Below, in pieces: positions 10,606 to 34,617 of a stretch of 43,304 bases of DNA. Under the pieces are notes generated by a model. It had not been told where the DNA came from. It ran no database searches and saw only the letters and a list, made by a program, of their open reading frames with translations. The position numbers and the translations under genes are program-made. The first letter of the stretch is position 1. Each line of letters begins with the position of its first letter. This DNA comes from an uncultured Porphyromonadaceae bacterium (GTDB lineage Bacteria; Bacteroidota; Bacteroidia; Bacteroidales; Muribaculaceae), in contig CANPGB010000028.1 of the NCBI GenBank assembly GCA_947573485.1, positions 1 to 43,304 of the forward strand. Reading direction: 5' to 3'.

Positions 10606-11447
10606 ATACTTAAATTTTTAATTACATCTTTCATGTTTTCGGTAAAGGTAATTGTTCGCGAGGCATTTTCAGGCGCCCCCTCGGGATACTCGGAATTAAG
10701 GCGTATCAAGGTTGCTTTCGGATTATGATAAGTTACCTGCTCGAAAGGAAAGCGGATGATTGCCGGGGTGTTGTAGCCTATGCCGAGTTCGAGAAGCACT
10801 ACCGGTTCTTTGTCGGCATAGCGGCTCATGAAACTCTCGTAGCGCGAGGCAGCCTTGTGCCAGTCCTCGTCCTGCACGAAGTACCCGTTCTTGCGCACGT
10901 GCACATCCATATTGCCACCGCACACGGGGCACACGGGCACATACTTTGTGTCAACGGTAAGGTCGTGCGAGTGTTTGAGAATATCTTCTACCACGGCTTT
11001 GTCGGAGTATACTTTCGGGTGGCAGCCCACGGCACACTGCATGAGGCCATAGTCGCCCTGCACCTCGAAAATTTTGTCAGGGGAGAAACCGGCCTTTCTG
11101 AACTGCCCGTCGACATTGGTCGTGATTACAAAATAATTCTTATCCTTGACCAGATCCAGCAGTTCTTTGTAAAGCTCAAAAGCCTCGGGGCGGAACCGTG
11201 CATAATCAATATGACGAGCCCAGCGTGCCCAGCGCTCTTCTTCGGTAGGGAAGTCGTAGAAACTCGAAGAGTAAAGGTCAGGGAAGTTATATTTCCTGAT
11301 ATAATCGGCAAACTCTTTCCTGAAGCCCTCACCCGAATAGTCGAGCCCTGCGGCAGCCGAAAAACCGGCACCGGCACCTATGACAACGGCATCGGCGGCA
11401 GCGATTTTCTGTCTGGCTTCTTCTATTCTCCGGCTAAAACTATTCAT
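10602..11447 (-). CDS. class M sirtuin (SirTM-like ADP-ribosyltransferase)
   Basis: 281-residue SIR2-fold protein. The NAD-binding loop is GAGAGFSAAAGLDY (24-37), differing from the GAGxSxxSGIPDFR of deacetylases. The catalytic region reads TTNVD with Asn111, then EVQGDYG with Gln130 where deacetylating sirtuins have His. The Asn-Gln spacing of 19 is the same as in Streptococcus pyogenes SirTM (N118/Q137), which ADP-ribosylates a lipoylated carrier protein rather than deacetylating. Zinc ligands are Cys138, Cys142, Cys173 and Cys176. The start overlaps the macrodomain gene by 8 bp, the classic SirTM-macrodomain pairing, so the modification and its removal are encoded together. No GcvH-L or lipoate ligase gene is in the window, so the target is open. 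Confidence 0.88.
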   Translation of the reverse strand: MNSFSRRIEEARQKIAAADAVVIGAGAGFSAAAGLDYSGEGFRKEFADYIRKYNFPDLYSSSFYDFPTEEERWARWARHIDYARFRPEAFELYKELLDLVKDKNYFVITTNVDGQFRKAGFSPDKIFEVQGDYGLMQCAVGCHPKVYSDKAVVEDILKHSHDLTVDTKYVPVCPVCGGNMDVHVRKNGYFVQDEDWHKAASRYESFMSRYADKEPVVLLELGIGYNTPAIIRFPFEQVTYHNPKATLIRLNSEYPEGAPENASRTITFTENMKDVIKNLSI

Positions 11448-12237
11448 ATCCTAAAAGCTCCTTATATAAATAATAATCAGTGTCTTTGAAAACGTTGAAT
11501 ACCACGGCCTCCACTCCCGAGCCGGGGTGGGCATCGAAATACTCCCTGACCGTAGCCACGGCAATCTCCGCTGCCTTATCCTGCGGGAAGCGGAACTCCC
11601 CGGTGGAGATACAGCAGAAGGCAATGGAACGCAGGCCTTTGTCATCGGCAAGAGCAAGACAGTTGCGATAGCAATCGGCAAGCAATCGGCAATCCTCGTC
11701 GGTAGGATATTCACCATATACAATGGGGCCTACCGTATGGATAACCCATTTTGCCGGCAGATTATAGCCATGGGTAATCTTGGCTTTGCCTGTAGGCTCT
11801 TCGTGCCCCTGGGCTTGCATTATATGGGCGCACTCGCTGCGCAGCTGCATACCGGCAGCCGAGTGTATGGCATTGTCGATACACCGGTGCATGGGCACGA
11901 AGCATCCGAGCATCTGCGAGTTGGCGGCGTTCACAATGGCATCTACCTCAAGGCGCGTTATATCGCCTTGCCACAGACGCAACCTCGGATAGCGAGGCGA
12001 GACAGGTATCGATGAGAGTGGCACGACACCTTTCTCCCGGCGCTGCTCGGCCAGCTCGCTGTCCTGCAGCTCCATGAGCCCGGGGGGCAAAGGAGCGGGC
12101 ATGCGCACGTTCATGAGCGAGCGCAGCAGGTTCCGTTTATCCTCCAGGGCGTCAGGAATCACTATCCTGCTATACTCAGGGCGCTCGCCGAGGAGCGCCC
12201 TGAGCAAGGTGTCGAGTTTTTCTTTCTCAGAAGTCAT
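11440..12237 (-). CDS. zinc-type macrodomain ADP-ribosyl hydrolase
   Basis: 265-residue protein predicted to remove ADP-ribose from the sirtuin's target. An N-terminal helical extension (about 1-85) precedes the macro fold, which starts LRLWQGDITRLEVDAIVNAANSQ (about 87-107). It continues LGCFVPMHRCIDNAIHSAAG, where Cys112, His117 and Cys119 form the Cys-x4-His-x-Cys signature of zinc-dependent macrodomains linked to class M sirtuins. The ADP-ribose loop CCISTGEFRFP is at about 208-218. The Met at 12237 was chosen because the 72 residues upstream in frame are antisense to the next gene and unlike any macro extension. It overlaps the PNPOx-like gene by 11 bp and the sirtuin by 8 bp, so the genes are translationally coupled. 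Confidence 0.9.
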   Translation of the reverse strand: MTSEKEKLDTLLRALLGERPEYSRIVIPDALEDKRNLLRSLMNVRMPAPLPPGLMELQDSELAEQRREKGVVPLSSIPVSPRYPRLRLWQGDITRLEVDAIVNAANSQMLGCFVPMHRCIDNAIHSAAGMQLRSECAHIMQAQGHEEPTGKAKITHGYNLPAKWVIHTVGPIVYGEYPTDEDCRLLADCYRNCLALADDKGLRSIAFCCISTGEFRFPQDKAAEIAVATVREYFDAHPGSGVEAVVFNVFKDTDYYLYKELLGYE

Positions 12238-12634
12238 AGTGAACAAGCGTGGGCGGAGTGGTGCGGAGGTCGAAGTAGTCCGCGGTCTCTGCCGGAAGGC
12301 GGAGGTATACCAGGTCCTTATAGGTCTTGTAGAGATGCGGCAACACGGGGTTGCTCTCGAAAATCTCGCGCTGTACCTCGTCGGGGATATCGAAGTCGAT
12401 AGTACCGTTGATGCGCCCGAACTCCGCGCCTTTGAGGTCGAGTATTGCCACATTGGGGTTAAGTTTCAGCTGGGCATATACGTCTTTCTTGGGCGATGTG
12501 GCGAAGTAGATGGAGTTATTCTCGGCGTCGATCTTCATTATCTGGAAGATGCGGACATGAGGTTTGCCGTCGACGGCAGTGGCAAAAGCCACCTCTTTGT
12601 TCTTTTGGAATATCTCAAGCAGTTTGGCATCCAT
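12227..12634 (-). CDS. pyridoxamine 5'-phosphate oxidase-like flavin-binding protein
   Basis: 135-residue split-barrel protein. The start KEVAFATAVDGKPHVRIFQ (about 13-31), then YFATSPKKDVYAQLKLNPNVAI (about 43-64) is typical of small PNPOx-like proteins that bind FMN or F420-type cofactors. Length is normal for the family, which lacks the full pyridoxamine oxidase signature. Genes of this kind often encode flavin reductases of unknown substrate. It lies 21 bp after the NAD(P)-binding oxidoreductase and overlaps the macrodomain gene, so it belongs to the same transcript. A redox role beside the ADP-ribosylation pair parallels the flavin oxidoreductases found near other SirTM cassettes; that link is inference. 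Confidence 0.85.
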   Translation of the reverse strand: MDAKLLEIFQKNKEVAFATAVDGKPHVRIFQIMKIDAENNSIYFATSPKKDVYAQLKLNPNVAILDLKGAEFGRINGTIDFDIPDEVQREIFESNPVLPHLYKTYKDLVYLRLPAETADYFDLRTTPPTLVHYDF

Positions 12635-20732: not shown

Positions 20733-22100
20733 ATGTCAGACTCTATCTCACTGAAAAAATACACGGCCATTGCGGCCATACTCATTGTATTGATAATGAC
20801 GGTGCTCGATGTCACCGTTATCAACGTTGCCATTCCGGTCCTCGCCCGCGAATTTGGCATCTCCGATTCGCTTTCGGTGTGGATTGTTACAATCTATGAG
20901 CTCGTCATCACCATGCTCATACTGCCCCTGTCGTCGTTGGGCGACATGTACAGCTACAGGCGCACTTTCCTCACGGGCGTTGTGGTTTTCACACTCTCTT
21001 CGGCATTATGCGCCGCCTCTCAGAACTTTACCATGATACTTGCAGCCCGAGCCTTGCAAGGCATAGGTGCGGCCTGTGTCATGAGCGTGAACATAGCGCT
21101 CACACGCCTCATCTATCCCAAAGAACTCCTTGGCCGCGGCCTGGCGCTCAACGGCATGGTGGTTGCAAGTGCCACGGCCGCCGGACCTACCATTGCCGGT
21201 GCATTGCTTTCGGTGGCGAGCTGGCACTGGCTGTTCCTTATCAACGTGCCATTCGGTATAGCGGCATTCTTCATAGGCCGGAAATACCTTCCGCGGAACC
21301 CAGGCAATAAAGGTGAGCGTAAATTCGACTGGATAAGCGCTGCGGCCAACGCCGCCATGTTCGGGCTCATTTTCCTCGCCTTAGGCGGCTACAAGGCCCG
21401 TGGCGACGAGCTTCGCCTGATAGTAATGCTTGCAATAGCCTTGATAATAGGCTACTGCTACGTGAGGCGCGAAAAAGGCTGCGAGGAGCCCATGCTGCCC
21501 GTCGACCTCTTCCACATACGCATCTTCTCGCTCAGTATAATAACTTCGGTGTGCTCTTTCATAGCTCAGATGCTCGCCATGGTGTCTATTCCTTTCATAC
21601 TCATGAACAGCTACGGCTTCTCTGCCATAAGCACCGGCCTCCTTATGACGCCATGGCCTTTGGCTACCATGATATGCTCGCCTTTCGCCGCACGTTTTGT
21701 AGAGCGGCATAATGCCGGCGCCACAGCAGCGGCGGGCATGGCTGTGTTTGCAGCCGGACTTGTAGCCCTTATACTGACACCCTCTGACAGCGCCACTGAA
21801 CTCGACATAATATGGCGCATGACCCTCTGCGGCATTGGCTACGGCATGTTCCAGACACCAAATAATATAATGATGGTCTCGTCGACTCCCGTGCACCGCT
21901 CAGGGGGCGCAGGCGGCATGCAGAGCACGGCACGCCTTGTTGGTCAGACTCTCGGCGCCACCCTCGTGACCGTTATTTTTGCCATTACCGCGGGCAGTAC
22001 CGCCACTATGGTACACTCGTGCCTGTGGGCGGCTTTCGCCTTCGCCATTGCCGCGGGCACCTTCAGCGTACTGCGCACGCGCAGGAAACCTGCTGCATGA
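20733..22100 (+). CDS. DHA2 family MFS multidrug transporter (EmrB/QacA-like)
   Basis: 455-residue inner-membrane antiporter with 14 predicted helices. Motif D1 is LDVTVINVAIPVLAREF (about 23-39). The helix 2-3 motif A is altered to SLGDMYSYRRTF (about 69-80). Motif C-like GPTIAGALL lies in helix 5. The in-frame GTG at 20694 was rejected because it lies inside the terminator hairpin; Met at 20733 gives the normal family start. No EmrA-type adaptor is adjacent. The 3' end overlaps the convergent DAHP synthase gene by 38 bp. Substrate unknown. Confidence 0.92.
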   Translation: MSDSISLKKYTAIAAILIVLIMTVLDVTVINVAIPVLAREFGISDSLSVWIVTIYELVITMLILPLSSLGDMYSYRRTFLTGVVVFTLSSALCAASQNFTMILAARALQGIGAACVMSVNIALTRLIYPKELLGRGLALNGMVVASATAAGPTIAGALLSVASWHWLFLINVPFGIAAFFIGRKYLPRNPGNKGERKFDWISAAANAAMFGLIFLALGGYKARGDELRLIVMLAIALIIGYCYVRREKGCEEPMLPVDLFHIRIFSLSIITSVCSFIAQMLAMVSIPFILMNSYGFSAISTGLLMTPWPLATMICSPFAARFVERHNAGATAAAGMAVFAAGLVALILTPSDSATELDIIWRMTLCGIGYGMFQTPNNIMMVSSTPVHRSGGAGGMQSTARLVGQTLGATLVTVIFAITAGSTATMVHSCLWAAFAFAIAAGTFSVLRTRRKPAA

Positions 22101-22851
22101 CCGATGCCAACTCGGCCGGTTTTATCTGCTGAAAACTGTCGGTAAGAGCTGCGTCGGGCTCGCAGTGGCACTCCACTATGAGGCCGTCGTAGCCACGGCG
22201 GCAGGCTTCGATAGATAATGGCAGAATTTTGGCACGGGAGCCTCCCATATGGGAGGGGTCGCATATGAGCGGAATTTCGGGGAGAGCATCTCGGAAACGT
22301 GTCACGTCGTCCCAAAGAGGAGCATTGCGGTAGCCAGTCATGCCAGGCACCTTGAAACCACGGTGTATTGCCGCAATATTGTGCAGGCCGCAGGCATGCA
22401 AGCGCTCCATGGCACCAATCCAAAGTTCGATGTCAAGGGCAGCGGGGTTCTTGACAAGCACAGGCCGGTTGCACCCACGGAGCGTTTCGGCAATTTCCTG
22501 CACGGCAAAGGGCGAGGCCGTAGTACGGGCACCAATCCACAGTATATCCACACCTGCCTTCATGGCGAGCTCGGCGTGCGCGGCGCACCCTATCTCGGTG
22601 GCTGTGAGCATGCCGGTTGCTTCTTTAACCATAGTGAGCCAGCGTAGAGCTTCCGCTCCGTAACCCTCGAAGCCTCCGGGACGCGTGCGGGGCTTCCACA
22701 CACCGGCTCTGAAAACTTTCACGCCGCAGGCCTGCAGCCCGCGTGCCGTCGCCAAAAGCTGCGAGGGAGATTCTGCCGAACAGGGGCCTGCAATGACAAG
22801 CGGCAGTTCTATATTCTTTGCCCGGAAATAATCCTTAAAATCTGAGTTCAT
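22063..22851 (-). CDS. stand-alone DAHP synthase (AroA-beta/KDO8PS type), no chorismate mutase domain
   Basis: 262-residue TIM-barrel enzyme predicted to condense phosphoenolpyruvate and erythrose 4-phosphate into DAHP, the first shikimate-pathway step. Landmarks are LVIAGPCSAES (about 17-27), VFRAGVWKPRTRPGGFEGYG (about 46-65), the ILWIGARTTASPF segment and PLICDPSHMGGSR (about 191-203) with metal and substrate ligands. Many Bacteroidales versions carry a C-terminal chorismate mutase; here the chain ends right after the barrel. The start at 22851 overlaps the ccsBA stop by 4 bp (ATGA), so it is the last gene of the heme-protein operon. A KDO8P synthase is a less likely reading. Placement with a chorismatase-like gene suggests dedicated aromatic supply. 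Confidence 0.85.
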   Translation of the reverse strand: MNSDFKDYFRAKNIELPLVIAGPCSAESPSQLLATARGLQACGVKVFRAGVWKPRTRPGGFEGYGAEALRWLTMVKEATGMLTATEIGCAAHAELAMKAGVDILWIGARTTASPFAVQEIAETLRGCNRPVLVKNPAALDIELWIGAMERLHACGLHNIAAIHRGFKVPGMTGYRNAPLWDDVTRFRDALPEIPLICDPSHMGGSRAKILPLSIEACRRGYDGLIVECHCEPDAALTDSFQQIKPAELASVMQQVSCACAVR

Positions 22852-24587
22852 TGGTAAGCGTGCAATGATGACATAAAATTCACGCCATAGTAAGTCATTA
22901 CTATCGACAGGAAAATCAAGAATATATAAATATTGAAAGCCAAGGAACGGCGACGCAGACCTACACTGCGGTGCAAGGGCAGTGCATAGAGCAGGAAGGT
23001 TACGAGCGCCCATGTCTCTTTCGGGTCCCACCCCCAGTAGCGTCCCCATGATACATTGGCCCACATGGCGCCCGTGATTATCCCGAGCCCGAGGAGGTAG
23101 ACGCCGGGGAAAAGCAGGACGTCGACGGTCTTGGCCAAAGAGGCCCTACGCCGGGGCAAGGCTATGGCACACAGCGAGATTGGCATGGTAAGACCGAGTA
23201 TGGCATAGGCTATCATTACAAGTGATACGTGCACCGAGAGCCACGGCGAGGCCAATACCGGCATGACAGGACTCATAACAGGGTCTTTCAATCCTAACCA
23301 TGACACAAGATAGAGAAAAGCAGACGCTGTCAGAGCCAGGCCGGTCAGCAAAGCCGACCGCGTTCGCCACCCCACTATTGCGGCAAGGCTTGCAAGCACC
23401 GTAGCCGTAAACTCCATTATCTCGTAAGTTGCCGAGAGCGGGAAATGCGCCGAGATTGAGCAATGCCACACAAAAGCTGCCCAACCCGCAACGGCAAGCA
23501 ATGCTGCCGCGAGCCACATACGTAAGTTTCTGTGCATGACCGCGGTGAGGAGTGCAAGCATGCCAAGACTCACGGCAATCATAAAAAGCCACTTGACCGG
23601 CACCATGCGGTTATAAGCCACCTCCGCTGCAATAGATGCAGATGAGCGCGCGGCTCCGTCGTCTTTTGGCAAGGGCTCGAAAAGCTCGCCACTCCACAGG
23701 TGCATGAGCAGCTCTATCTTCTCATCGAGCACAACTATATCTTTATCAAGGAAGCCCTCCCCGCCTTTGTACAAAGTGCCCGGCAGATAGTTCTGATTGG
23801 CATCGTAAAGACTTGCCACAGCCACATAGTCACCTTCCACACCGAGGGCTTTGCGCAGTGCCTTGCTCTTCACTTTTAGAAATGGCACATGATACCACTC
23901 CTCCTTATATATAATGAGCGATGCAACGAATGCCTCGGGCGAAAGACTTGCGACACGGGCGCGCCCCGTAAGTTTATAAGTGAGGCGGCTTGCCACGGTA
24001 CTGAACGGCATAACCTCGCCGTTGTAAAGCACTTGGCGGAGCCCGAGCGAGTCGGCATAAGCGGTACCGACAGCAGGCACCGCAAAAGCAGCCGGCGCCA
24101 CAGCGCATAACAGAAATATTGCGGCAAGCCGGCGCAGGCGCTTGGCGAGCACCCAAGCTCCGGCAATCGCAAACAGTGCGAAACCGAGGTACACAACCGC
24201 TATGCCCGCAGGGTCGTGGCTGACGCTGAGAACAGTGCCGCCCTCGTTATCGAAAGAACTTTGGCAGAAGCGGTAACCCCTGACTTTACCTATATGGTTC
24301 ATGGATATTTGCAAGGTATCGCCGCTTGAGGCTATAACTTCCGATTTGAAATCCTTGGGCGTGGGCATACCACGGTGCCGCTCTATGTCGAACTTCAGCA
24401 AGGTAAGGCTGAACGGCAGGCGATGCACGGTGCTGTCGGCGCTTATAAACTCGCAGGCGGCCATACCCGGCTTCAGATGAATCGTGCCGCTTTGCCCGGA
24501 GAAGCAAGTTATCAGTCCTCCTATAATAACAAAGATGAACGACACATGCAGCGCAACGATGCTTTTGGACGCTTTAATAAGCCTCAT
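22848..24587 (-). CDS. cytochrome c heme-attachment protein CcsBA (ResBC)
   Basis: 579-residue polytopic protein of system II cytochrome c maturation, which moves heme to the outer face of the inner membrane and attaches it to CxxCH proteins. The N-terminal ResB/CcsB-like part has a membrane helix and a periplasmic domain (about 1-310). The C-terminal CcsA part has multiple helices, the conserved HFPLSATYEIMEF region and the heme-handling WWD motif WGRYWGWDPKETWAL (514-528), with flanking His residues. It is the only maturation gene here and is co-transcribed with two CxxCH lipoproteins, its likely substrates. It overlaps the Rid-like gene by 14 bp and the DAHP synthase gene by 4 bp. Confidence 0.93.
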   Translation of the reverse strand: MRLIKASKSIVALHVSFIFVIIGGLITCFSGQSGTIHLKPGMAACEFISADSTVHRLPFSLTLLKFDIERHRGMPTPKDFKSEVIASSGDTLQISMNHIGKVRGYRFCQSSFDNEGGTVLSVSHDPAGIAVVYLGFALFAIAGAWVLAKRLRRLAAIFLLCAVAPAAFAVPAVGTAYADSLGLRQVLYNGEVMPFSTVASRLTYKLTGRARVASLSPEAFVASLIIYKEEWYHVPFLKVKSKALRKALGVEGDYVAVASLYDANQNYLPGTLYKGGEGFLDKDIVVLDEKIELLMHLWSGELFEPLPKDDGAARSSASIAAEVAYNRMVPVKWLFMIAVSLGMLALLTAVMHRNLRMWLAAALLAVAGWAAFVWHCSISAHFPLSATYEIMEFTATVLASLAAIVGWRTRSALLTGLALTASAFLYLVSWLGLKDPVMSPVMPVLASPWLSVHVSLVMIAYAILGLTMPISLCAIALPRRRASLAKTVDVLLFPGVYLLGLGIITGAMWANVSWGRYWGWDPKETWALVTFLLYALPLHRSVGLRRRSLAFNIYIFLIFLSIVMTYYGVNFMSSLHAYQ

Positions 24588-25689
24588 ACTCAGGTTTTTC
24601 GATATGCTTTATTGCCATGCACTCGCTCTCTATCAACCACCCCGGGCGGCATACGGGCGCCAAGACTATGGCCATAGGAATATTGGCGAAGCGGGCACCG
24701 AGAATAGCCGACACTGTCGAATAGTCGGCAATATCGCGCAGATATACAATAAGATGTGCGACATCTGTCCACCCGCAAGCGGCCTCGGCAAGAAGCACTT
24801 CAATATTCTCGAGCATACGCTCTGTCTGCGCCCTGATATCTCCCGGCGCAACGATATTTCCCTTGTTGTCGATGCTCGCCGTACCCGATATATACACATT
24901 GCGGCGGTCGCGGTAGTCAACATAAGTGCCGCGCTCAAACGCCACACCATATTCGTAAGTAGGATTAAGATGTGATTTTGCGTATACATGCGACATCTGC
25001 CCGGGTCTGAGCCGGGTGTCGCAGAAAGCATTGAAAGACACAAGCCTGCGGGGATCGGCAGCTTGCCCTGCAATGCCTGTCGAGGCAATGAAATGCGTGT
25101 CGCAAGAGAGTCCTTCTTCGGCGAAAACCTCGTTTCGCCCCCCGACAACCCCGGCGTAGTTGTTGTCGACATCACGCACAAAGAACCATGTGCGCACGCA
25201 ATTATCAAGCAGTGTGGCACCTTGGCTGCCCAATATTTTGGAGAGTACTTCAAGATAATCAACCGTCATAGCCCACGAATCGGCGGCGACGACCTCCGGC
25301 AAATCGCCCACGAACATATGCCCTGCGGCGTCGAGCCACACGCCTTCCGAAATCTCGCGGAAAGTGGCATTTTCCTCATAGATTACGAAAAGCACGCCCT
25401 TGGAGGCGTCGAGCGGCGGCTGCTGAACTACCGAGCGTGCGCAGTTGAGGCTATCGTCAAGAAGAGGCGCCTGATTTGTAGCGTCGCTCAGCAGATAGCG
25501 CCCGAATACCGGCTTCATCTTCAGCTCTGCAGCGAGCGTCAGAGCTGCCTTCGCCAGGCATGAAAGCTGAAAGCCGGCGTCGGCAGTCTTGTCGGCAGGG
25601 CTTAAAATAGCATGCGCCTCGCGGCGGCCACCGTCGAATACCGCCACCCGCGCAAGCACCTTGTCTGATTGCAGTTCTGTATATTTCAT
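24574..25689 (-). CDS. two-domain Rid/YjgF-family protein, chorismatase-like
   Basis: 371-residue cytoplasmic protein with a C-terminal YjgF/Rid domain (about 250-365: VYISGTASID, GDIRAQTERMLENIEVLL, AHLIVYLRDI). A longer N-terminal domain carries CVRTWFFVRDVDNNYAGVVGGRNEVF (about 164-189). This double architecture and length resemble the FkbO/Hyg5/XanB2 chorismatases, which split chorismate into hydroxybenzoates or related aromatics. The Arg that single-domain RidA imine deaminases use (in PARxxVxV) is replaced by hydrophobic residues (PMAIVLAPVCR). A Cys347-Arg348 pair and Glu354 are present near the usual active-site region. With the DAHP synthase two genes away, chorismate chemistry is plausible but unproven; a divergent Rid hydrolase is the alternative. 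Overlaps both neighbours (4 and 14 bp). Confidence 0.65.
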   Translation of the reverse strand: MKYTELQSDKVLARVAVFDGGRREAHAILSPADKTADAGFQLSCLAKAALTLAAELKMKPVFGRYLLSDATNQAPLLDDSLNCARSVVQQPPLDASKGVLFVIYEENATFREISEGVWLDAAGHMFVGDLPEVVAADSWAMTVDYLEVLSKILGSQGATLLDNCVRTWFFVRDVDNNYAGVVGGRNEVFAEEGLSCDTHFIASTGIAGQAADPRRLVSFNAFCDTRLRPGQMSHVYAKSHLNPTYEYGVAFERGTYVDYRDRRNVYISGTASIDNKGNIVAPGDIRAQTERMLENIEVLLAEAACGWTDVAHLIVYLRDIADYSTVSAILGARFANIPMAIVLAPVCRPGWLIESECMAIKHIEKPEYEAY

Positions 25690-26390
25690 TGTTTTGCTCC
25701 TGAGTCTATCCAGTTTTTAATCAAATCGAGTTTTTCTTGCCTGAGCACCTCCACCGAGTGGTCGTAGTTCCACGTAGCCGAGCATTCGCTTTCGAGAATC
25801 ATGTAGAGCACGCTGGCTCCGCTCTCCCCTGCCTCAACGCGCCTGAGAGCGGGCATCTTCACCGATGCAACCCCGACAAGTTGATCGTAACTCAGGCCTT
25901 CGGTAAGGTTAAGCCCTGCTGCAGAGAAATTCGAGCCACCGTGGCACTGTATGCAGGTTGTATTGAAAATTTCGCGTTGTATGGCACCGTACATACTGAG
26001 GTTCACGCTCAGTGGAGTCAGCTGCAGAGTGTCACTACCGGCAATATAATCAACCGCCGCAAAACTTGCCACCTTGCGCCTCAGACGGTCAAGCACGCAA
26101 AGCTCCACAGTACTCACCTCCGGCGGGATACCCGAGAGCACAATATTGACAGTGCAATCCGACACGCCGCCGTCAATATTCTTGCTCACAAGGGCATATT
26201 CATTGCCGTCGGCAAACCCGGCGAGCGCCGCAGTATAACCCTCGGGCCAGCTTTCGAGGCCGGCCACTGTGGTAGTCAGGCGGGCACTACCACCCTCCTG
26301 CTCTGCCACAACAAGGTCGTTGTAAAGCCTGCCCTCGTCGCACGATGCAAGACAAAGGAGGGCCGCGGCCAAGAGTGTAAGATGCTTCAT
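25686..26390 (-). CDS. mono-heme c-type cytochrome lipoprotein
   Basis: 234-residue lipoprotein (lipobox CLASC, Cys17). The N-terminal half is a beta-rich domain of unknown type. The C-terminal half begins IFNTTCIQCHGGSNFSAAGLNL, with one heme-binding motif C146-I-Q-C-H150, followed by a planctomycete-cytochrome-like stretch ending LDLIKNWIDSGAKQ. A further Met in SVKMPALRR may be the distal ligand. It sits 1 bp behind the porin gene and overlaps the Rid-like gene by 4 bp. It probably passes electrons to or from the di-heme oxidoreductase encoded upstream. Confidence 0.85.
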   Translation of the reverse strand: MKHLTLLAAALLCLASCDEGRLYNDLVVAEQEGGSARLTTTVAGLESWPEGYTAALAGFADGNEYALVSKNIDGGVSDCTVNIVLSGIPPEVSTVELCVLDRLRRKVASFAAVDYIAGSDTLQLTPLSVNLSMYGAIQREIFNTTCIQCHGGSNFSAAGLNLTEGLSYDQLVGVASVKMPALRRVEAGESGASVLYMILESECSATWNYDHSVEVLRQEKLDLIKNWIDSGAKQ

Positions 26391-26391
26391 G

Positions 26392-27606
26392 TCAGAAAGT
26401 GTACTGAGCCATTACCACCACTGAGCTTGTTGAGAGTCCGAGATTATCTTCATCGCGGTCCATTTGCCGGGCGTGCCCCGTGCGACCTGTGTATTGGTAC
26501 ATGGCCTGGAGTTTGAGGTTAATGCTGTTGAAGAAATAGTTGGCTCCGACCGCCGGCATATTAAGAAAGCCACCTTTCTTGGTTGAGTTGCGCTCGAAAA
26601 GGTCGTATCGGAGGGCGCCCTGCAGATGAGGTGTGATGAAATATCCCACCTGCGCATACCCGCCGTAATAATTATATGACGTGTCTATTTTCTGACGACG
26701 GGTAAAACCCACGTGCATATAGTAGGCTTCGAGGCCGAAATACCAGCGGTCTTTAATCCACGACCATTCGAAGCCGAGGCGGAAGTCGTTGGTACTCTCG
26801 TTCTCGCTCTCAACGTTCATCGAGGCCGAGAGCCCTACGAGCATCTTGTTGCTGTTCAAGCGCTTGGGGTCGCCCTGCGTTGCAGGCATCACGCCGAAAG
26901 GCTGGTAGGTGAGGCGGGCGGCATAGAGGAGCGAGGGTATGTGCCAGTCGTCGCTCAAGGTTTTACCGGCTACGTTGACGCTCGCGCCTGTGCCGTTGAA
27001 GATACCTGCCTGATAGCCGAAACGCCCTTTTATCATGCCATGTACCTCCACGCCGAGGTCGAAGCCTGTGCCAATGTGAGGGGTGACGGCATTGAGCGAA
27101 TAAGGCAGAATCACCGCTGCCGTGAGCGATGTGGGCATAACAGGGAAAAGAGTTTCACCCAAAGTGGTGAGGTAAGCGTGCGAGAAAGGTGTCTTGAACT
27201 TGCCTATGCGCACACCCACCTCTTCTTTAGGGCGTATGTCGGCCCATGCCTGTTGCAGGAGTGCGCCACCCGAGGCGGCCGCGTTTATCGAGAGGTTGAA
27301 CGTAACAATATTGAAAGCTTTGCCGGTGAAACCAAGCACTGCATAGGGTATTCCAAAACCCGAGTTGGCAACGTTATCCTGGTTGTAGGCCGGGTCAAGC
27401 CCGGCATCATCGTAGTAGTTATAGTTGGCCGTGGTCTGCACCAGCAGGTAGGGCTTGAACAGGAAATCGCCCTTTTTGGTAGTGAAGGTAAAGCCCCGGT
27501 GGTCGGCCAGCGACACGACTCCGTTTTCGGTATCGGCATCGTACTGCGCACGCAGCAGAGGGCTTGTCAGCAATATTGATATAATGATGAATATAACTCT
27601 TTTCAT
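26392..27606 (-). CDS. outer membrane porin (OprO/OprP-like)
   Basis: 404-residue beta-barrel protein with a signal peptide (about 1-20, ending LLRAQ). It has repeated amphipathic strands and the OprO/P-type motifs GFTFTTKKGDFLFKPYLLVQ (about 38-57) and VRIGKFKTPFSHAYLTT (about 131-147), and a C-terminal aromatic residue (AQYTF) for barrel assembly. It overlaps the di-heme oxidoreductase gene by 4 bp and precedes the cytochrome gene. In this operon it may admit an anionic metal complex or electron acceptor; specificity cannot be read. Confidence 0.85.
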   Translation of the reverse strand: MKRVIFIIISILLTSPLLRAQYDADTENGVVSLADHRGFTFTTKKGDFLFKPYLLVQTTANYNYYDDAGLDPAYNQDNVANSGFGIPYAVLGFTGKAFNIVTFNLSINAAASGGALLQQAWADIRPKEEVGVRIGKFKTPFSHAYLTTLGETLFPVMPTSLTAAVILPYSLNAVTPHIGTGFDLGVEVHGMIKGRFGYQAGIFNGTGASVNVAGKTLSDDWHIPSLLYAARLTYQPFGVMPATQGDPKRLNSNKMLVGLSASMNVESENESTNDFRLGFEWSWIKDRWYFGLEAYYMHVGFTRRQKIDTSYNYYGGYAQVGYFITPHLQGALRYDLFERNSTKKGGFLNMPAVGANYFFNSINLKLQAMYQYTGRTGHARQMDRDEDNLGLSTSSVVVMAQYTF

Positions 27607-29039
27607 AGCGATTGAAGAAATTTTATCAGCGCCCGTCGGTCGGCCCGCGTCATGTTTCTGAATTTATTTCTCGAGGCCTCGCCCTCACCGCCGTGCCACA
27701 TTATAGCTTCGGTAAAATTGCGTGCGCGGCCGTCGTGAAGGAAATAAGTGTGGCCGTTGACTTTTTCCTGCAGGCCTATGCCCCATAGCGGAGTGGTGCG
27801 CCACTCGTTGCCTCGCGCCAGGCCTGACACATAATTATCATTGAGCCCCACGCCCATAATCTCCGAGCCCATGTCATGAAGCAGGAAATCGCTGTAAGGG
27901 TGTATTGTCTGGTTGCCGAGCCATGGCAACTGTGTGCCTGCCAGCAATGTTGAGCCTCGCGGGCGCGTGTGCAGCGTAGTCACATGGCAGAGGTGGCACC
28001 CGGCTTCATAAAACATGCTCTCGCCACGTTTCACCTCGGGGTCGTTAACATTGCGTCGCGCCGGCACGCCGAGCGACTGCATGTAGAGGTCAACGTTCTC
28101 CATATCTTCTGTAGAGACATCGAGTTGGTCGTAGCTTAATCCCATCATCGAACCCTGGCTCATCTGAACCTGCCCCTCGCATATCTCCTCGGGGTAGCGG
28201 CTGTTTGTAACACCCATATCGCTTGAGAAACCGAGCTCAACGGTAAGATCGGCGTGCTGCGCCTTGTTGCCCGAAATACCGAGCATCGTCACCCCGCGCT
28301 CGCTCACGTAGTTGCAACGGCCACTGATACCCCACTCCGGGTAGTTGCTCTTGGCGGCAAGCTGCTCTATTTCGTTGGGGTCGAGCGACATCAGTTGCCC
28401 CATGCCAACATGCCTCAGCGGAATACGCACGGTGCAGAAGAGGTCTTCGGGAGCAATCTCTTCGGCGTACCAATCGGTGATTGTGTACACAGGATATGCA
28501 AGTTCGTACGGTTCTCCGTCGGCAAACTCGAACTGCCCGAACTGCCATTCGACTTTCAGTTTACCCTCCGGCTTCACACCGTAGATAGCCTGATCGTGGA
28601 GCACACGGCCGTAGTCGCGAAAGAACGCTCCATTCCTGCGGGTTATATACACCAGCATCGCCGAGAAACCATAGGAGCCGGAGCCGTTATCGCTCCACAC
28701 ACCGGGACGCGTGCGCCCTGCGTTGCGGTGACAACTGCCGCAGGAGTAGCCTGCGTAAACGGGTCCGAGACCGCCACCGTGGCCGTTTGTCGACGTGCGT
28801 ACATCGTCGTAGAGGCGGTCGCCGCGGACGAAGCGCGTGAGGTAGTCGCCCGACACCCATGGCGCCTCACTGTCGTAGGCCACCGACGAGTTCAAGAATA
28901 TAGTAGAAGTCCCCGCCGACAAAGCATAGTCGGCAGGAACCTCAATATCAAGAACATCAAGCCCGTCGCTCTCGCACGACGGCAGCGCAAGACCGAGTAC
29001 TGCCGCAGCGAAAATCCGGAAATGTATCCTTGAAACCAT
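27603..29039 (-). CDS. di-heme oxidoreductase (DHOR family) lipoprotein
   Basis: 478-residue lipoprotein (LALPSC, Cys22) of the family often labelled thiol oxidoreductase or putative di-heme peroxidase. It has two heme c motifs, C100-G-S-C-H104 in the N-terminal part and C348-H-L-C-H352 in the C-terminal part. DHOR landmarks around the second heme are present: GESMFYEAGCHLCH, IHPYSDFLLHDMG and RTTPLWGIG, then HDGRARNFTEAIMWHGGE. In many bacteria this gene accompanies imelysin/EfeO-like metal-binding proteins, as here, where the imelysin gene ends 1 bp upstream. A role in oxidising or reducing a metal or ligand at the cell surface is likely but untested. Confidence 0.92.
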   Translation of the reverse strand: MVSRIHFRIFAAAVLGLALPSCESDGLDVLDIEVPADYALSAGTSTIFLNSSVAYDSEAPWVSGDYLTRFVRGDRLYDDVRTSTNGHGGGLGPVYAGYSCGSCHRNAGRTRPGVWSDNGSGSYGFSAMLVYITRRNGAFFRDYGRVLHDQAIYGVKPEGKLKVEWQFGQFEFADGEPYELAYPVYTITDWYAEEIAPEDLFCTVRIPLRHVGMGQLMSLDPNEIEQLAAKSNYPEWGISGRCNYVSERGVTMLGISGNKAQHADLTVELGFSSDMGVTNSRYPEEICEGQVQMSQGSMMGLSYDQLDVSTEDMENVDLYMQSLGVPARRNVNDPEVKRGESMFYEAGCHLCHVTTLHTRPRGSTLLAGTQLPWLGNQTIHPYSDFLLHDMGSEIMGVGLNDNYVSGLARGNEWRTTPLWGIGLQEKVNGHTYFLHDGRARNFTEAIMWHGGEGEASRNKFRNMTRADRRALIKFLQSL

Positions 29040-29040
29040 A

Positions 29041-30192
29041 TCAATTCTTTATACGTCGGGGCTGACCGTCTTTAAAGAGCAGGAACTCAAGGGTGTGGAA
29101 ACCGCGCACCGACTGCACGGCCTCGATAGTGGCATCGTCGTCGCCGTCGCTCCAGTTGAGATCGTCGTATTTCCCTGAGTTGAGAATCTGCACAATGTTA
29201 TCCTGGTCGAGAGGCCAGCTGTCCATGTTGGGGTCGAGGCCGAGAGCGTCAACCGGGCCGAAGAGGAAGGCTTCGCTCTTCTCCCATGGCTCGCGGGCCT
29301 CAAGCCACGCCGTGCAGGCAGCGGCAAAATTGGCATCGGAGGGTTGGTTCTTGAAGTTGACAACGCTCTTGTAGAGTGCGGCATTTTTCTCTTTGAGGCT
29401 CTTGTATGTGGGCAGCACTACCATATCCACGAAATTATCCACAACATCCTGGAAGCGTGCATCATTACCGAGGGCATTGACAGCCGATTTGAGCTTCACC
29501 GAGAGCATCTCCTCAAGGTCGGCGCAAGCGTTCATAGCCTCGCGGGTCTCGCTGCTGTTAATGTGGTTGCGGAAAGGCTGTGGTATGCCGAGGATAGCGT
29601 TGGTGGCGGTACTGATAGCAGCTTTCATCTCCGCATCGAGGTCGGGATTCACTTTGCCGATGAGTGCTGAGAGCGATTTGCTGCTGACAGTGCCGTCGAG
29701 CGAGCCGTAGTATGAGTTGCGTATTGAAAGGATATTGTTGGAGTAGTCTTCGCGCGAGTGCCAGCTGTACCACGATTCCACGGCGTAGAGGGCTCCTTGG
29801 GTGTCGCCCGACACATACAGCTGATAGGGGTCGCCGATTTTGGCAGTACCTACCTCGTTTGCGATGTCGGCGCAGCCTTCTATTATCTGCTCTATACAGC
29901 TGAGTGCGCTCGAATAATCGCCACCGTTATGAGCCTTGAAGCTTGTGGCAAAAGGTGTACCGCCCTCATACGATGTTGTCCATGCGTCATAGAGGCTGTT
30001 GGCGTCGAGCTGCAGGAGAGCTCCGACCTGCACCATGTAGTTGCCCCAGCTTGCGGCATTCTGTTCGGTGTAGTCGAGGGTGGCGCTGTCGTCGTCATCG
30101 GTTTTGGGCTCGTCCTTGTCGGAGCAGCCGCTCATTGTCATTGCCGCGGCGCACATGAAGGCCGCGAGGGTGAATCTGAATTTTCTTTCCAT
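29041..30192 (-). CDS. imelysin family lipoprotein
   Basis: 383-residue helical lipoprotein (MTMSGC, Cys23) followed by an acidic linker (KDEPKTDDDDS). It belongs to the imelysin/EfeO-M75 family of iron-regulated envelope proteins. The hallmark GxHxxE motif is present near the C-terminus as G364-F-H366-T-L-E369. The second half of the two-bundle fold has EARxPWEKSEAFLFGPVDALGLDPNMDSWPL (about 295-325), the typical W-x-x-S-E and DxxxDSWP region. Members bind iron or heme and are not thought to be true peptidases. It is followed by the di-heme oxidoreductase gene after 1 bp. Confidence 0.93.
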   Translation of the reverse strand: MERKFRFTLAAFMCAAAMTMSGCSDKDEPKTDDDDSATLDYTEQNAASWGNYMVQVGALLQLDANSLYDAWTTSYEGGTPFATSFKAHNGGDYSSALSCIEQIIEGCADIANEVGTAKIGDPYQLYVSGDTQGALYAVESWYSWHSREDYSNNILSIRNSYYGSLDGTVSSKSLSALIGKVNPDLDAEMKAAISTATNAILGIPQPFRNHINSSETREAMNACADLEEMLSVKLKSAVNALGNDARFQDVVDNFVDMVVLPTYKSLKEKNAALYKSVVNFKNQPSDANFAAACTAWLEAREPWEKSEAFLFGPVDALGLDPNMDSWPLDQDNIVQILNSGKYDDLNWSDGDDDATIEAVQSVRGFHTLEFLLFKDGQPRRIKN

Positions 30193-30210
30193 TGCTTGTG
30201 ATTATATTGT

Positions 30211-31542
30211 TTACTTCTTTATAAACCAGCCGATATAAGCCACTCCGATAGAGAACTCATTCTCGGAGTTGTAGCTCCCTTTGCCGAATACTTTGGCCGT
30301 ACCAATCTGCCGGGTAGTGTAGTCGGCCTTCACCACGAGGTTGGGGAGCGCGTACCAGTTAAGACCTGCCTGCCACTGGCTCACCTCAAGTCGCTTGTCC
30401 ATGCTTGTGCGCCCGGCGCCGCGGTACTGCGGGTTATAGTATTCATAGCGTGCGAATGGGTAAATCACGGGCAGACGACCACCTGTAACGGTCTTGAGAT
30501 TGAAGCCAAACTCAGCGCCGTAGCTCAGGGCGTTCTTGGCTATCGGTATCAGGCGGCTGTAGGGCGACTTGTTGGAGAGCGTGCGGTTGGCGTCGCTCAG
30601 TGCCTTGCTGTTGCCCACGTAGCCATAGGTAACATTGGCTCTCGCCGTCACATATTTATTCTTATATTGTGCATCCCAGGTGCCAATGGCCACAGGTATA
30701 CGACCTATGGCCGAGTAGGTGTGCTCTTTGTCGGAGTTGCTGCCGGCATCGCGGCAGTAGTAAACCGACAGGCCTGTGCGCAAGCCTGGAACTCCGGCGT
30801 AGTCGACGCGTGCCACATATCCCGGCGAGGTGAAATTATCGGTTTCGAAAAGGCCCTGCTTACCGCCTATAATCCACTCATCGCGGTTGAAACCGTTGGC
30901 GTTAAGACCTGCAACTACCATAAGCTGATAATCGAAGCGGGCATAGCCACGCCCTGCCGAGCCGAAAAACTGGATGCCTGTCTCATGCCACGTAGAGGGC
31001 AGAAGCGAGGTTTCGGCCTGCGGGCGTACGGTGCCGAAAAAGTTTATAGGCTCATGGTGGGCATTGGTAAGTCCTACAGGCACAATCATATGCCCGACAC
31101 GCACATTGAACTGAGGCACAATGAGGCGCGTGAGGTGGAACTGCTCAAGAGCAACCTCTCCACCCTTTTCCATTTCAGTTTCATACTCACCGTTCTCGCT
31201 GTTCTCAAGCTCCACGGCAGTGCCCGTGCCACCCGACTCAAACTCTATCTCGGCACCAAGAACCCATTTTGAGTTGAATTTATAGTCGAAGGCCACCACA
31301 AAACGTGGTATTGAAATAGTATTGCGGTGTGTGCGGGGGCTACCCGAAGCCGTGCCGCCGAAGCGGTTGATGCCATAATCTTTGAAGGAGGCTACCATTT
31401 CGCCATAACCGCCGAAGCGGAACTTGCCGTAACCGGCGGTATCGGCAGCAGCGGCCTGCTGCTCAGCCACTTCGGGCATGGCAAATACGCCCAGGGCACT
31501 TAAAAGAGCGGCGCATAATGTGATTGTTGGTCTACTGTGCAT
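30211..31542 (-). CDS. outer membrane porin, first gene of the heme/imelysin operon
   Basis: 443-residue barrel protein. Met at 31542 (MHSRPTITLCAALLSALGVFA) gives a normal signal peptide; the frame extends to 31596, but that would include the promoter region. Barrel motifs include FRFGGYGEMVASFKDYG, the strand NSKWVLGAEIEFESGG and the TRLIVPQFNVRVGHMIVPVGLTNAHHEP segment of phosphate-type porins. The C-terminus (IGVAYIGWFIKK) is slightly atypical, lacking a terminal Phe. It is 18 bp ahead of the imelysin gene. The presence of two different porins in one operon is notable. Substrate unknown. Confidence 0.85.
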   Translation of the reverse strand: MHSRPTITLCAALLSALGVFAMPEVAEQQAAAADTAGYGKFRFGGYGEMVASFKDYGINRFGGTASGSPRTHRNTISIPRFVVAFDYKFNSKWVLGAEIEFESGGTGTAVELENSENGEYETEMEKGGEVALEQFHLTRLIVPQFNVRVGHMIVPVGLTNAHHEPINFFGTVRPQAETSLLPSTWHETGIQFFGSAGRGYARFDYQLMVVAGLNANGFNRDEWIIGGKQGLFETDNFTSPGYVARVDYAGVPGLRTGLSVYYCRDAGSNSDKEHTYSAIGRIPVAIGTWDAQYKNKYVTARANVTYGYVGNSKALSDANRTLSNKSPYSRLIPIAKNALSYGAEFGFNLKTVTGGRLPVIYPFARYEYYNPQYRGAGRTSMDKRLEVSQWQAGLNWYALPNLVVKADYTTRQIGTAKVFGKGSYNSENEFSIGVAYIGWFIKK

Positions 31543-31554
31543 TGTCCGGTAATA

Positions 31555-31584
31555 TTTTACGGCTGCAAAATTACGGCCGTAAAA
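31555..31584. promoter_or_regulatory. inverted repeat operator centred on the operon's -7 box
   Basis: TTTTACGGC (31555-31563) and GCCGTAAAA (31576-31584) form perfect 9-bp arms with a 12-bp spacer. The dyad centre (31569.5) coincides with the centre of the -7 box. Inside it, TTACGGCCGTAA (31571-31582) is a perfect 12-bp palindrome. A regulator bound here would block or remodel the promoter. The divergent LuxR-type regulator is the natural candidate. Confidence 0.55.
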
Positions 31585-31596
31585 AAAGCACCGCAA
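31566..31596 (-). promoter_or_regulatory. promoter of the imelysin/cytochrome operon
   Basis: On the minus strand, TTG (31596-31594), a 20-bp spacer and TAATTTTG (31573-31566), ending 23 bp before the porin ATG. Exact consensus boxes and spacing. Confidence 0.75.
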
Positions 31597-31679
31597 TACT
31601 CAAAAATAAGACAAATTGCGACTGCACACCGAAGGCATAAACCCTAATTTTGGGTATAGCGCAAGTGGGCATACATCAC

Positions 31680-31687
31680 TAATTTTG
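31680..31687 (+). promoter_or_regulatory. -7 box of the hemerythrin/LuxR regulator
   Basis: TAATTTTG, 22 bp before the ATG. A second identical box at 31645-31652 lies inside ACCC-N7-GGGT. Neither has a good -33 element. Confidence 0.5.
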
Positions 31688-31709
31688 CGCTCACATTACA
31701 GCTACATTC

Positions 31710-32666
31710 ATGACACCTTCTCTCAGCCCGTTCACCCCCGACCACAAGTTAAGCTCGATGATAGAGGAAAATAACCTCCTGCTCATGGTTATTGCCCGCT
31801 TCGGCATATCTTTCGGGTTCGGCGACAAGAGCGTGCGGCAGGTGTGCGCCGACAACAATGTGCACTGCGACACCTTTATAACCGTATGCAATTTCATAGC
31901 CAACCGCAGCTACAACGCAAGCGCGGTCTCGCTGCCCTCGCTGATGCAATACCTGCGCAGCGCCCACACCTATTTCCTCGATTTTCTCCTGCCTGCCATA
32001 CGCTACAAGCTGCTGCAGTCGGTGAACTGCACGCAGATCGACGATATCGCCGTGCTTCTGCTGCGCTTCTTCGACAGCTACGTGCGCGACGTCCGCCAAC
32101 ACATGGAGCATGAGAACCGCGAGATTTTCACCTATGTCGACCGACTGCTTGCGGGCGAAGTCGCCGACACTTTCCGCATAGCCGATTACTCGGTGGGCCA
32201 CACAAGCATGGCAACCTCGCTCACTGAGCTCAAAGACGTTTTCATACGCCACTACAACCAGCAGACCAACATGATACTCGCCTCCGCCCTCAGCGACATC
32301 ATGGTTTGCCACCAGGACCTTTGCTCGCACTGCGATATTGAAAACACACTTTTCATACCCGCCGTCGAAAGGCTTGAGAAATCGCTCAAACTCGAGGCCC
32401 CCACACAGGCTCCCCAACCTGCCGCGTGCGATAAGGACGAGCTCGCCGAGAGCATGACCGACCGCGAGAAAGAAATAATATGCTGCGTGGCACGCGGCAT
32501 GGCAAACAAAGAGATTGCCGACGCTCTGTGTCTCTCAATCAACACCGTGACCACTTACCGCCGCAACATTTCGGCTAAGCTCCAGATTCACTCGGCGGCA
32601 GGGCTCACAATATTTGCCATTCTGCACAAGCTGATAGACCTCAACGAGATAAACCCTCACATCTGA
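31710..32666 (+). CDS. hemerythrin-like/RIC domain fused to LuxR-type HTH regulator
   Basis: 318-residue regulator. The N-terminal part (about 15-65) recalls the ScdA_N segment of RIC/YtfE iron-repair proteins but without its Cys pair. A helical bundle with hemerythrin-type iron ligands follows: His86 in SAHTYFLDFLLPAI, His134/Glu138 in MEHENREIF, and His207/Glu211 in SHCDIENTLFIP, plus further His at 164 and 181. The LuxR/GerE helix-turn-helix is at about 247-310 (MTDREKEIICCVARGMANKEIADALCLSINTVTTYRRNI). There is no receiver domain, so the di-iron bundle is the likely sensor of iron, oxygen or nitric oxide. It is divergent from the imelysin/cytochrome operon, whose promoter holds a dyad operator. 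Confidence 0.8.
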   Translation: MTPSLSPFTPDHKLSSMIEENNLLLMVIARFGISFGFGDKSVRQVCADNNVHCDTFITVCNFIANRSYNASAVSLPSLMQYLRSAHTYFLDFLLPAIRYKLLQSVNCTQIDDIAVLLLRFFDSYVRDVRQHMEHENREIFTYVDRLLAGEVADTFRIADYSVGHTSMATSLTELKDVFIRHYNQQTNMILASALSDIMVCHQDLCSHCDIENTLFIPAVERLEKSLKLEAPTQAPQPAACDKDELAESMTDREKEIICCVARGMANKEIADALCLSINTVTTYRRNISAKLQIHSAAGLTIFAILHKLIDLNEINPHI

Positions 32667-33758: not shown

Positions 33759-33837
33759 CTTGTAAACGACAGACACCGAAATACTGAAAAATAACCATTT
33801 GCACACACTGCGGCTCCTGATTTCATCTTTTATCGCT

Positions 33838-33845
33838 AACTTTGC
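33838..33845 (+). promoter_or_regulatory. -7 box of the PAS/LuxR regulator
   Basis: TAACTTTG, 7 bp before the ATG at 33853. It decides the start, because the longer frame from 33799 would begin upstream of it. The transcript leader would be very short. Confidence 0.5.
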
Positions 33846-33852
33846 GGGCAGT

Positions 33853-34617
33853 ATGGATATTTTACGAAAGGAACTCAACAGCGTATACGAATCGCAGAAT
33901 CTCTGCACCGAAAATCTCGACAGCGATATTCTCCGCGCTTGCCGCGATACCATGGCGAGCTGCGTGGCTGTCGACGGCAACTGCCGTGTGCTTACCGACG
34001 CCGCCTCCGACTCTTCGTGGATATGCGGAGGCAGCTTCGGTGAGCTTATAGGCATAAGCCCGGCGATGACCGGAATAGATTCGAGTGACGAAGACGAAAT
34101 ATACAATGCCATACACCCCGAGGACCTCGTGGACAAACGTATGCTTGAATACGAGTTTTTCAAATTTGTCGACACTCTGCCGCCGGAGCTGAAGACGAGC
34201 TATAAAGCGAGCTGCCGCATACGCATAAAAAACAAATCGGGCAACTACATCTCAGCCGCAAACAGCACCAAAGTCCTGCAATTGTCGCCGCGCGGTAAAA
34301 TTTGGCTTATACTGTGTTGCTACGACTTCGATGATGCCGACACCGGCGCCCCGGGCATAGCTCCGCGTATCTTCAACAATGCCACAGGGCACTGCCTGCA
34401 GCCCGACTTCGCAGAGCGGCGCTCGCGCATCCTCACCCAACGGGAGAAAGATGTGCTCTCGCTTATCAAAGCGGGCAAGCCCAGCAAAATAATAGCCGAT
34501 ATTCTCGGAATAAGCGTGCATACCGTAAACCGGCACCGCCAAAATATTCTCGAAAAACTCAGCGTGGGCAATTCGCTTGAAGCTGTCATGGCCGCCTCGG
34601 CAATGAAGCTGATGTAG
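33853..34617 (+). CDS. PAS-like domain LuxR family regulator
   Basis: 254-residue regulator with an N-terminal PAS-like sensory region (about 30-165: CVAVDGNCRVLTDA, then IHPEDLVDKRMLEYEFFKF, the PAS_3-like IHPEDR core). A LuxR/GerE helix-turn-helix follows at about 195-254 (LTQREKDVLSLIKAGKPSKIIADILGISVHTVNRHRQNILEKL). There is no phosphoacceptor domain. It is the second receiver-less LuxR regulator within 3 kb. It precedes the amylase-like gene on the same strand and may control that or the divergent acyltransferase. Ligand unknown. Confidence 0.85.
   Translation: MDILRKELNSVYESQNLCTENLDSDILRACRDTMASCVAVDGNCRVLTDAASDSSWICGGSFGELIGISPAMTGIDSSDEDEIYNAIHPEDLVDKRMLEYEFFKFVDTLPPELKTSYKASCRIRIKNKSGNYISAANSTKVLQLSPRGKIWLILCCYDFDDADTGAPGIAPRIFNNATGHCLQPDFAERRSRILTQREKDVLSLIKAGKPSKIIADILGISVHTVNRHRQNILEKLSVGNSLEAVMAASAMKLM

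Follow-up and report, generated by a model that had tools for sequence, protein, structure and literature searches.

We analyzed a 43,304-nt stretch of DNA from an uncultured Porphyromonadaceae bacterium of the Bacteroidales family Muribaculaceae (contig CANPGB010000028.1, positions 1 to 43,304; hereafter the window). It carries an operon of eight genes in which porins, an imelysin, and two heme proteins stand beside a cytochrome c synthase (CcsBA) and two genes that point to chorismate metabolism (Table 1). One of these two encodes a protein with a C-terminal Rid domain that we call RidCH, and the other encodes a DAHP synthase (DAHPS). All eight open reading frames (ORFs) are intact, lie on the minus strand at 22063..31542, and start with ATG. 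Read from porinA to DAHPS, the junctions measure +18, +1, -4, +1, -4, -14, and -4 bp. These recomputed values bear out the original prediction, which described a one-strand cluster of eight genes with gaps of 1-18 bp and overlaps of 4-14 bp. No tRNA genes were found in the window. Published sources are cited by PMC accession.

Table 1. The operon, its promoter, and the divergent neighboring gene (window coordinates)
Feature	Position	Strand	Assignment and supporting matches
porinA	30211..31542	-	outer-membrane porin, 443 aa; Porin_O_P 7e-5, 22.6 bits against a cut-off of 20.9
Imelysin lipoprotein	29041..30192	-	circularly permuted PIBO type; PF09375 1.4e-55
DHOR/DUF1111 di-heme lipoprotein	27603..29039	-	PF06537 6.6e-63; CGSCH and CHLCH
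porinB	26392..27606	-	OprP/OprO-like porin; Porin_O_P PF07396 1.5e-52
Mono-heme lipoprotein	25686..26390	-	CIQCH
RidCH	24574..25689	-	chorismatase-like, C-terminal Rid domain; PF01042 5.7e-19; C347, R348, E354
CcsBA	22848..24587	-	CcsBA-like cytochrome c synthase; PF01578 1.3e-27 and part of ResB
DAHPS	22063..22851	-	extra DAHP synthase, 262 aa, without a chorismate mutase part; PF00793 4.5e-36
Promoter	31566..31596	-	Bacteroidota type, TTG-N20-TAATTTTG; 23 bp before the porinA ATG
HHE-LuxR gene	31710..32666	+	divergent; HHE hemerythrin-like domain (PF01814 9e-6) and LuxR-type helix-turn-helix (PF00196 2e-15)

The eight genes are likely to form one transcript. We scanned both strands of 22063-31709 for TTG-N19-21-TAnnTTTG, which we take to be the Bacteroidota promoter consensus, and found a single match, at 31596-31566; 300 base shuffles of the minus strand gave a mean of 0.08. 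Inside the operon, TAnnTTTG does not occur on the minus strand. A looser form of the promoter (TTG-N17-23-TAnnTTTG) is present in 35 of 41 stretches taken at porinA starts, each with at most 60 bp of the called ORF. Sites resembling E. coli sigma-70 promoters count against a single promoter: both strands of 21900-31900 hold 15, compared with 6.0 (standard deviation 2.6) in shuffles, and six of the 15 lie on the minus strand inside the operon. Because these sites exceed the shuffled expectation, a weaker internal promoter is possible. The earlier proposal of one consensus promoter thus stands for the Bacteroidota-type site and leaves room for internal starts. The same region has 13 terminator-like sites, four of them on the minus strand, against 9.4 (standard deviation 3.2) in shuffles. 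The promoter contains a perfect 12-bp palindrome (TTACGGCCGTAA, 31571-31582) that falls between its -33 and -7 elements and shares three bases with the -7 element; this palindrome is a possible operator.

The imelysin, DHOR, and mono-heme proteins have lipobox-like N-termini, a motif that we take to mark lipoproteins, and all three are predicted to sit at the outer-membrane surface. The imelysin matches its family profile with the halves swapped (profile positions 125-285 and then 1-126), as expected of the permuted PIBO type, and its GFHTLE sequence, a GxHxxE motif, lies near the C-terminus at residue 364 of 383. Its nearest solved structure is 3n8u from Bacteroides ovatus (E 4.1e-147). In the available part of PMC3143127, permuted imelysins are reported from Bacteroidales only, and imelysins are linked both to the uptake of iron and to partner proteins of the DUF1111 (DHOR) family. 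The DHOR protein has CxxCH motifs at residues 100 and 348 and no PDB match at E 0.01. The mono-heme protein has one CxxCH, at residue 146, and matches Cytochrome_CBB3 weakly (E 0.027, under the cut-off).

RidCH resembles chorismatases over its whole length. Searches with the single sequence returned the Rid domain and a sub-threshold chorismatase match. A profile of 14 RidCH members matched the chorismatases Hyg5 (3.9e-10, profile positions 126-368) and FkbO (9.5e-7) in the PDB. In hhalign, RidCH aligned with four chorismatase-like proteins of the phylum at 1.8e-32, and at 5.2e-20 once the Rid part was removed; control alignments with DHOR gave 0.17 and 0.31 with and without that part. The four comparison proteins fall under the TIGR04444 cut-off, yet they match Hyg5 at 4e-43. 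Each of the 14 RidCH members matches TIGR04444 (best 2.2e-13) and none reaches the curated cut-off, so we class RidCH as chorismatase-like. The homology to FkbO and Hyg5 covers both parts of the protein, and these alignments indicate that RidCH is distantly related to the two over its full length.

The active-site residues are also conserved. C347, R348, and E354 of RidCH align with Cys327, Arg328, and the catalytic Glu334 of Hyg5 and are present in 90 of 90 ORFs longer than 330 aa (87 fit the search pattern, and the other three differ only before the Cys). G205 and G269, at the SGTAS and TGI positions, are invariant in all 14 members. RidCH thus has the catalytic Glu together with the CH-II-type Gly, Gly, and Cys of Hyg5; the Hyg5 positions were derived from the alignment and from the residues that PMC7170507 lists. 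The Gly, Arg, and Glu also occur in simple Rid proteins, and the first Gly occurs in FkbO as well, so the Cys, which FkbO lacks, is the most telling residue. The catalytic Glu is described together with the Gly/Gly/Cys set of the CH-II type, which forms 3-hydroxybenzoate (PMC7170507), and the product of a chorismatase is reported not to be accurately predictable from sequence (PMC3949708).

The operon CcsBA scores 97.3 bits against PF01578 (cut-off 29.9) and 46.7 bits against ResB (cut-off 24.6), the latter over residues 12-116 only, a short ResB part. With the sequence WGRYWGWD at residue 514, which we read as the WWD motif, it combines the Cytochrom_C_asm domain, the WWD motif, and ResB; its score of 125.3 bits is below the 187.6-bit cut-off of TIGR03144. 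It is the sole PF01578 match in the window genome. We set aside the idea that it serves a nitrite reductase, as the genome has no match to NrfA, the c-type cytochrome for which the whole genome was searched.

We asked how RidCH is distributed among 198 sampled genomes of the window's family, Muribaculaceae. RidCH is found in 39 of them (E up to 1e-20; the copies in G620 and G653 have internal stops), PF01578 in 92 (two under the family cut-off, neither with RidCH), and a close, or type-1, DHOR in 19. Every RidCH genome has a PF01578 match (39/39), compared with 53/159 of the others (p 4e-16, Fisher test, phylogeny ignored). The two genes lie within 6 kb of each other in 28 of the 39 genomes. 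In the other 11, the draft assemblies have them on separate contigs, and nine of these genomes carry a more distant, type-2 DHOR; RidCH is at a contig end in two of the 11 (G624 and G656). Agreement is perfect, and the genes are mostly linked, within genus g2 (6/6 against 0/8) and genus g296 (6/6 against 0/10). In a sample of the order the effect is weak: PF01578 is present in 14/14 genomes with a RidCH match above 260 bits and in 142/184 others (p 0.03), a count that left out G059 and shorter Rid-only matches. G059 has a broken RidCH copy (locus L046) and no PF01578 match, which fits loss of both.

The link to DHOR is looser. The original prediction would have been refuted by a lack of conservation of the Rid gene beside the cytochromes in relatives; RidCH occurs in all 19 type-1 DHOR genomes, so the prediction was not refuted on this point. 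The 20 RidCH genomes without type-1 DHOR comprise 10 with type-2 DHOR and 10 with neither, and RidCH shows no association with type-2 DHOR in the family (10/39 against 38/159, p 0.48). RidCH-CcsBA pairs also stand beside other CxxCH proteins, in two loci with DUF6057-PD40 sets (L120 and L179) and in L184; among the neighbors shown, the pairs in L178 and L180-L183 have no CxxCH protein. RidCH is therefore not specific to the imelysin module. The DUF6057-type membrane genes, paired with CxxCH PD40-type proteins near RidCH in L120, L179, L041, and L064, form a cytochrome-like set that we did not recognize (Pfam was run on the L120 pair only).

This distribution would also fit another role for RidCH, as a Rid-type hydrolase or binding protein that helps CcsBA to assemble cytochromes c, perhaps by removing a reactive metabolite, with DAHPS as a chance addition. 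RidCH tracks the assembly genes (39/39) more widely than it tracks either DHOR type, several RidCH-CcsBA pairs lack an imelysin, Pfam calls the Rid domain alone, and simple Rid proteins outscore Hyg5 in the PDB search. Against a helper of this kind stand the match of the Rid-free half of RidCH to chorismatase-like proteins and the invariant Hyg5-type Cys that accompanies the Arg and Glu. We consider such a helper unlikely, and the distribution of DAHPS, described below, also argues against it.

We compared the gene neighborhoods of 95 RidCH loci, comprising the best 80 of at least 587 relatives and 15 stretches from sampled genomes. Because the loci were picked by RidCH, they show how often a neighbor occurs beside RidCH and not the reverse. 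Searches with tblastn found DHOR in 49 loci, the imelysin in 46, porinA, porinB, and the mono-heme protein in 45 each, CcsBA in 50, and DAHPS in four; type-1 DHOR is present in 42. Gene order is kept in other Bacteroidales at 26-90% protein identity, so the heme part, with RidCH and usually CcsBA, recurs across the order. Some loci (L035, L050, L051, and L058) are truncated where their contigs end, the greedy ORF caller missed genes (the intact DAHPS of L054, for example), and our locus classes misplace cut loci, with L035 and L115 carrying operon genes yet sitting in class D. RidCH is patchy at finer scale, being present in two of the 16 genomes that were sampled from the genus of the window. 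One contig labelled Lachnospiraceae (L059) carries a seven-gene Bacteroidales set at 36-82% identity and is probably a mis-binned metagenome contig. Downstream of the heme genes in L037, two RidCH copies stand on either side of an HHE-LuxR gene.

The class of loci that has neither CcsBA nor DHOR holds 37 of the 95, some of them cut or miscalled. Such loci would fit RidCH and DAHPS being co-regulated passengers, in which case chorismate use at low iron would serve another purpose, without direct contact with the heme proteins. The presence of a cytochrome c assembly gene in all 39 RidCH genomes of the family, on another contig in 11 of them, speaks against passengers, and we find this idea quite improbable.

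The operon DAHPS scores 124.6 bits against PF00793 (cut-off 25.5) and has GPCS and DPSH motifs, which we take to bind metal; at 157 bits it is below the TIGR01361 cut-off of 267.75. We set it aside as the housekeeping enzyme, since a 360-aa DAHP synthase with what appears by eye to be a mutase tail is encoded on contig C22 of the same genome; a 270-aa protein on C31 was taken as KDO8P synthase. A second, mutase-free DAHP synthase copy is present in three of the 198 family genomes. It lies directly behind the full operon in G000 and G665, and in G496 it follows, at a contig start, a CcsBA 54% identical to that of the window. Full operons are also followed by DAHPS in L054 and L055. These five sequences group in a single clade (100/99), although long branches were flagged for L055, the window, and others; comparison rows in this tree were labelled mutase-bearing by open-frame length.

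The gene was seen in one clade of the operon (the window, L054, L055, L176, and L177, the last on a contig that begins within CcsBA), so the conservation beside the cytochromes that the original prediction called for is only partial. On a quick tree of the operon, at least four changes are needed to explain where the gene occurs, which may be a single gain with three later losses or several separate gains. DAHPS is thus an accessory. The DAHP synthase genes near RidCH in L057 and L107 were rejected as operon members: they encode 347 and 363 aa, lie on the opposite strand, and fall outside the operon clade. Both loci come from horse-gut Bacteroidaceae, and by eye their longer enzyme carries a chorismate mutase tail. 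Members of the mutase-free clade were encountered solely behind this type of CcsBA gene, which speaks against a chance addition beside an assembly helper. That an enzyme supplying the precursor was recruited beside a chorismatase-like gene is our main independent reason for thinking that RidCH acts on chorismate.

A published locus of B. thetaiotaomicron, BT2473-2482, has annotations that agree in order with the window operon (CcsA, porin, thiol oxidoreductase, M75, and helix-turn-helix regulator). It is among the highly induced responses to iron depletion (63-324-fold) and colitis (14-33-fold), whereas BT1414-1418, with nrfAH and its own ccsA/ccsB, is down 30-36-fold on iron depletion (PMC10434189). 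The two loci are matched by annotation, not by sequence; the available part of that source names no chorismatase-like gene in BT2473-2482, lists no DAHP synthase, and lists a fimbrillin gene. B. thetaiotaomicron is outside our 95 loci, so we infer the place of RidCH there from B. finegoldii (L063) and B. faecalis (L099), in which RidCH lies between the mono-heme gene and CcsBA. A FUR-family gene follows CcsBA in L099. Flavodoxin or DUF2023 genes, described as iron-starvation genes (PMC10434189), occur in five of 42 operon loci (assigned by clustering, with one of each confirmed by Pfam). BT_2479 was found in the supernatant of a coculture, and EspB was still cleaved with the BT_2479 mutant (PMC6282197); its signal peptide has been used for secretion (PMC13192842, preprint). 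The original prediction described a surface metal/electron module, which the induction of the matching locus by iron starvation makes plausible, with the surface location predicted from the proteins.

The module might instead be mainly a surface peroxide or electron-transfer system that is co-induced with low iron. DHOR would then be a di-heme peroxidase, and the phenolic product would be its electron donor and not an iron ligand. DHOR is annotated as a putative peroxidase, and a CCP_MauG peroxidase gene stands beside RidCH in B. nordii (L123). We regard a peroxide system as quite improbable, given that relatives of the imelysin are tied to iron uptake (PMC3143127) and that the published inducing condition is iron depletion (PMC10434189).

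The gene divergent from porinA may be a regulator of the operon. Genes matching an HHE or LuxR-type domain are present in 25 of the 95 RidCH loci. Such a gene lies divergent beside porinA in six of the 38 loci with room upstream, and one is also divergent upstream of porinA in L176. Prevotella intermedia has a CdhR-like regulator with a fused HHE domain, and CdhR is reported to control hmuYR (PMC10434189); the HHE-LuxR protein is possibly of this CdhR-like kind. A second LuxR-type gene lies farther out, at 33799-34617 on the plus strand, after the HHE-LuxR gene and an acyltransferase gene. Elsewhere in the window, a Sir2-family gene (PF02146 8.9e-7) and a Macro-domain gene (PF01661 5.3e-40) overlap each other at 10602-12453 on the minus strand, adjoined by an esterase-like gene at 9064-10605. 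We take this pair to resemble macrodomain-linked sirtuins.

We propose that the operon serves as a surface heme module at low iron, equipped with a CcsBA of its own and a chorismate-derived product, probably a hydroxybenzoate, and we give this proposal an even chance. The two porins and three predicted outer-membrane lipoproteins would handle iron at the cell surface, and the dedicated CcsBA would attach the hemes. RidCH would convert chorismate to a small hydroxybenzoate-type acid, which might work with the c-type cytochromes as an iron ligand, a reductant, or an electron mediator. In the window's clade, the mutase-free DAHPS would feed the chorismate pathway. RidCH provides an assayable handle on this model: its chorismatase-like character predicts the substrate (chorismate), the co-product (pyruvate), and the product class, and ties that chemistry to c-type cytochromes.

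Several observations weigh against this proposal. RidCH scores 42.2 bits against the 325-bit cut-off of TIGR04444, and the Pfam chorismatase N-domain (PF21168) was found in 0/14 members at E up to 1. Simple Rid proteins rank above Hyg5, which is eighth of 53 hits in the PDB profile search, and the Rid-free profile matches no PDB chain at E 0.01. The co-occurrence tests ignore phylogeny, the genes in 28 of the 39 genomes are linked, and 10 of the 39 have neither DHOR type. The RidCH loci in the class without CcsBA or DHOR also count here. Close relatives have the operon without a DAHPS behind it, and in G496, where the contig starts inside CcsBA, neither RidCH nor DHOR was found in the assembly. 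A broader and rather doubtful extension of the model is that gut Bacteroidales, which are not known to make siderophores, use a chorismatase to produce their own small aromatic acid for dedicated use with c-type cytochromes. This would be undescribed low-iron redox or iron-capture chemistry, and RidCH-CcsBA would be a general two-gene unit for different cytochrome operons.

The original prediction singled out the link of the chorismatase and DAHP synthase genes to imelysin and cytochromes as the part not recognized from described systems. The imelysin-DUF1111/DHOR pairing and the iron response of the matching locus are in print. A literature search, with subscription journals mostly outside it, found no report that names a chorismatase-like gene for this operon or connects such a gene with cytochrome c assembly; the relationship of RidCH, that link, and the extra DAHPS appear to be new.

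We compared RidCH and the operon to known systems. FkbO and Hyg5 share with RidCH the full-length relationship, the catalytic Glu, and, in Hyg5, the Gly and Cys positions, but they feed polyketide, pigment, or ubiquinone pathways (PMC7170507, PMC3949708), none of which was seen beside RidCH. Aryl-polyene or flexirubin genes were not noticed beside RidCH in the loci listed, and no model-based search for them was made. XanB2 of Xanthomonas is likewise a Gram-negative outlet from chorismate, to 3- and 4-hydroxybenzoate, but its 4-hydroxybenzoate goes to ubiquinone (PMC3949708, PMC12423496). We set aside a ubiquinone-type use here, as the single UbiA-family gene of the window genome looks by eye like MenA. 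EfeUOB, as described in PMC3143127, pairs an imelysin-domain protein with a heme peroxidase-like partner, but among the window's eight genes Pfam finds no EfeU/Ftr1 permease and no cupredoxin domain. The available text of PMC3143127 on imelysin-DUF1111 operons such as PA4370-4373 does not mention two porins, a mono-heme protein, CcsBA, a chorismatase-like gene, or DAHP synthase. With the IrpA/PIBO imelysin family and those operons, the window operon shares a PIBO-like (3n8u) permuted imelysin and its di-heme DUF1111 partner.

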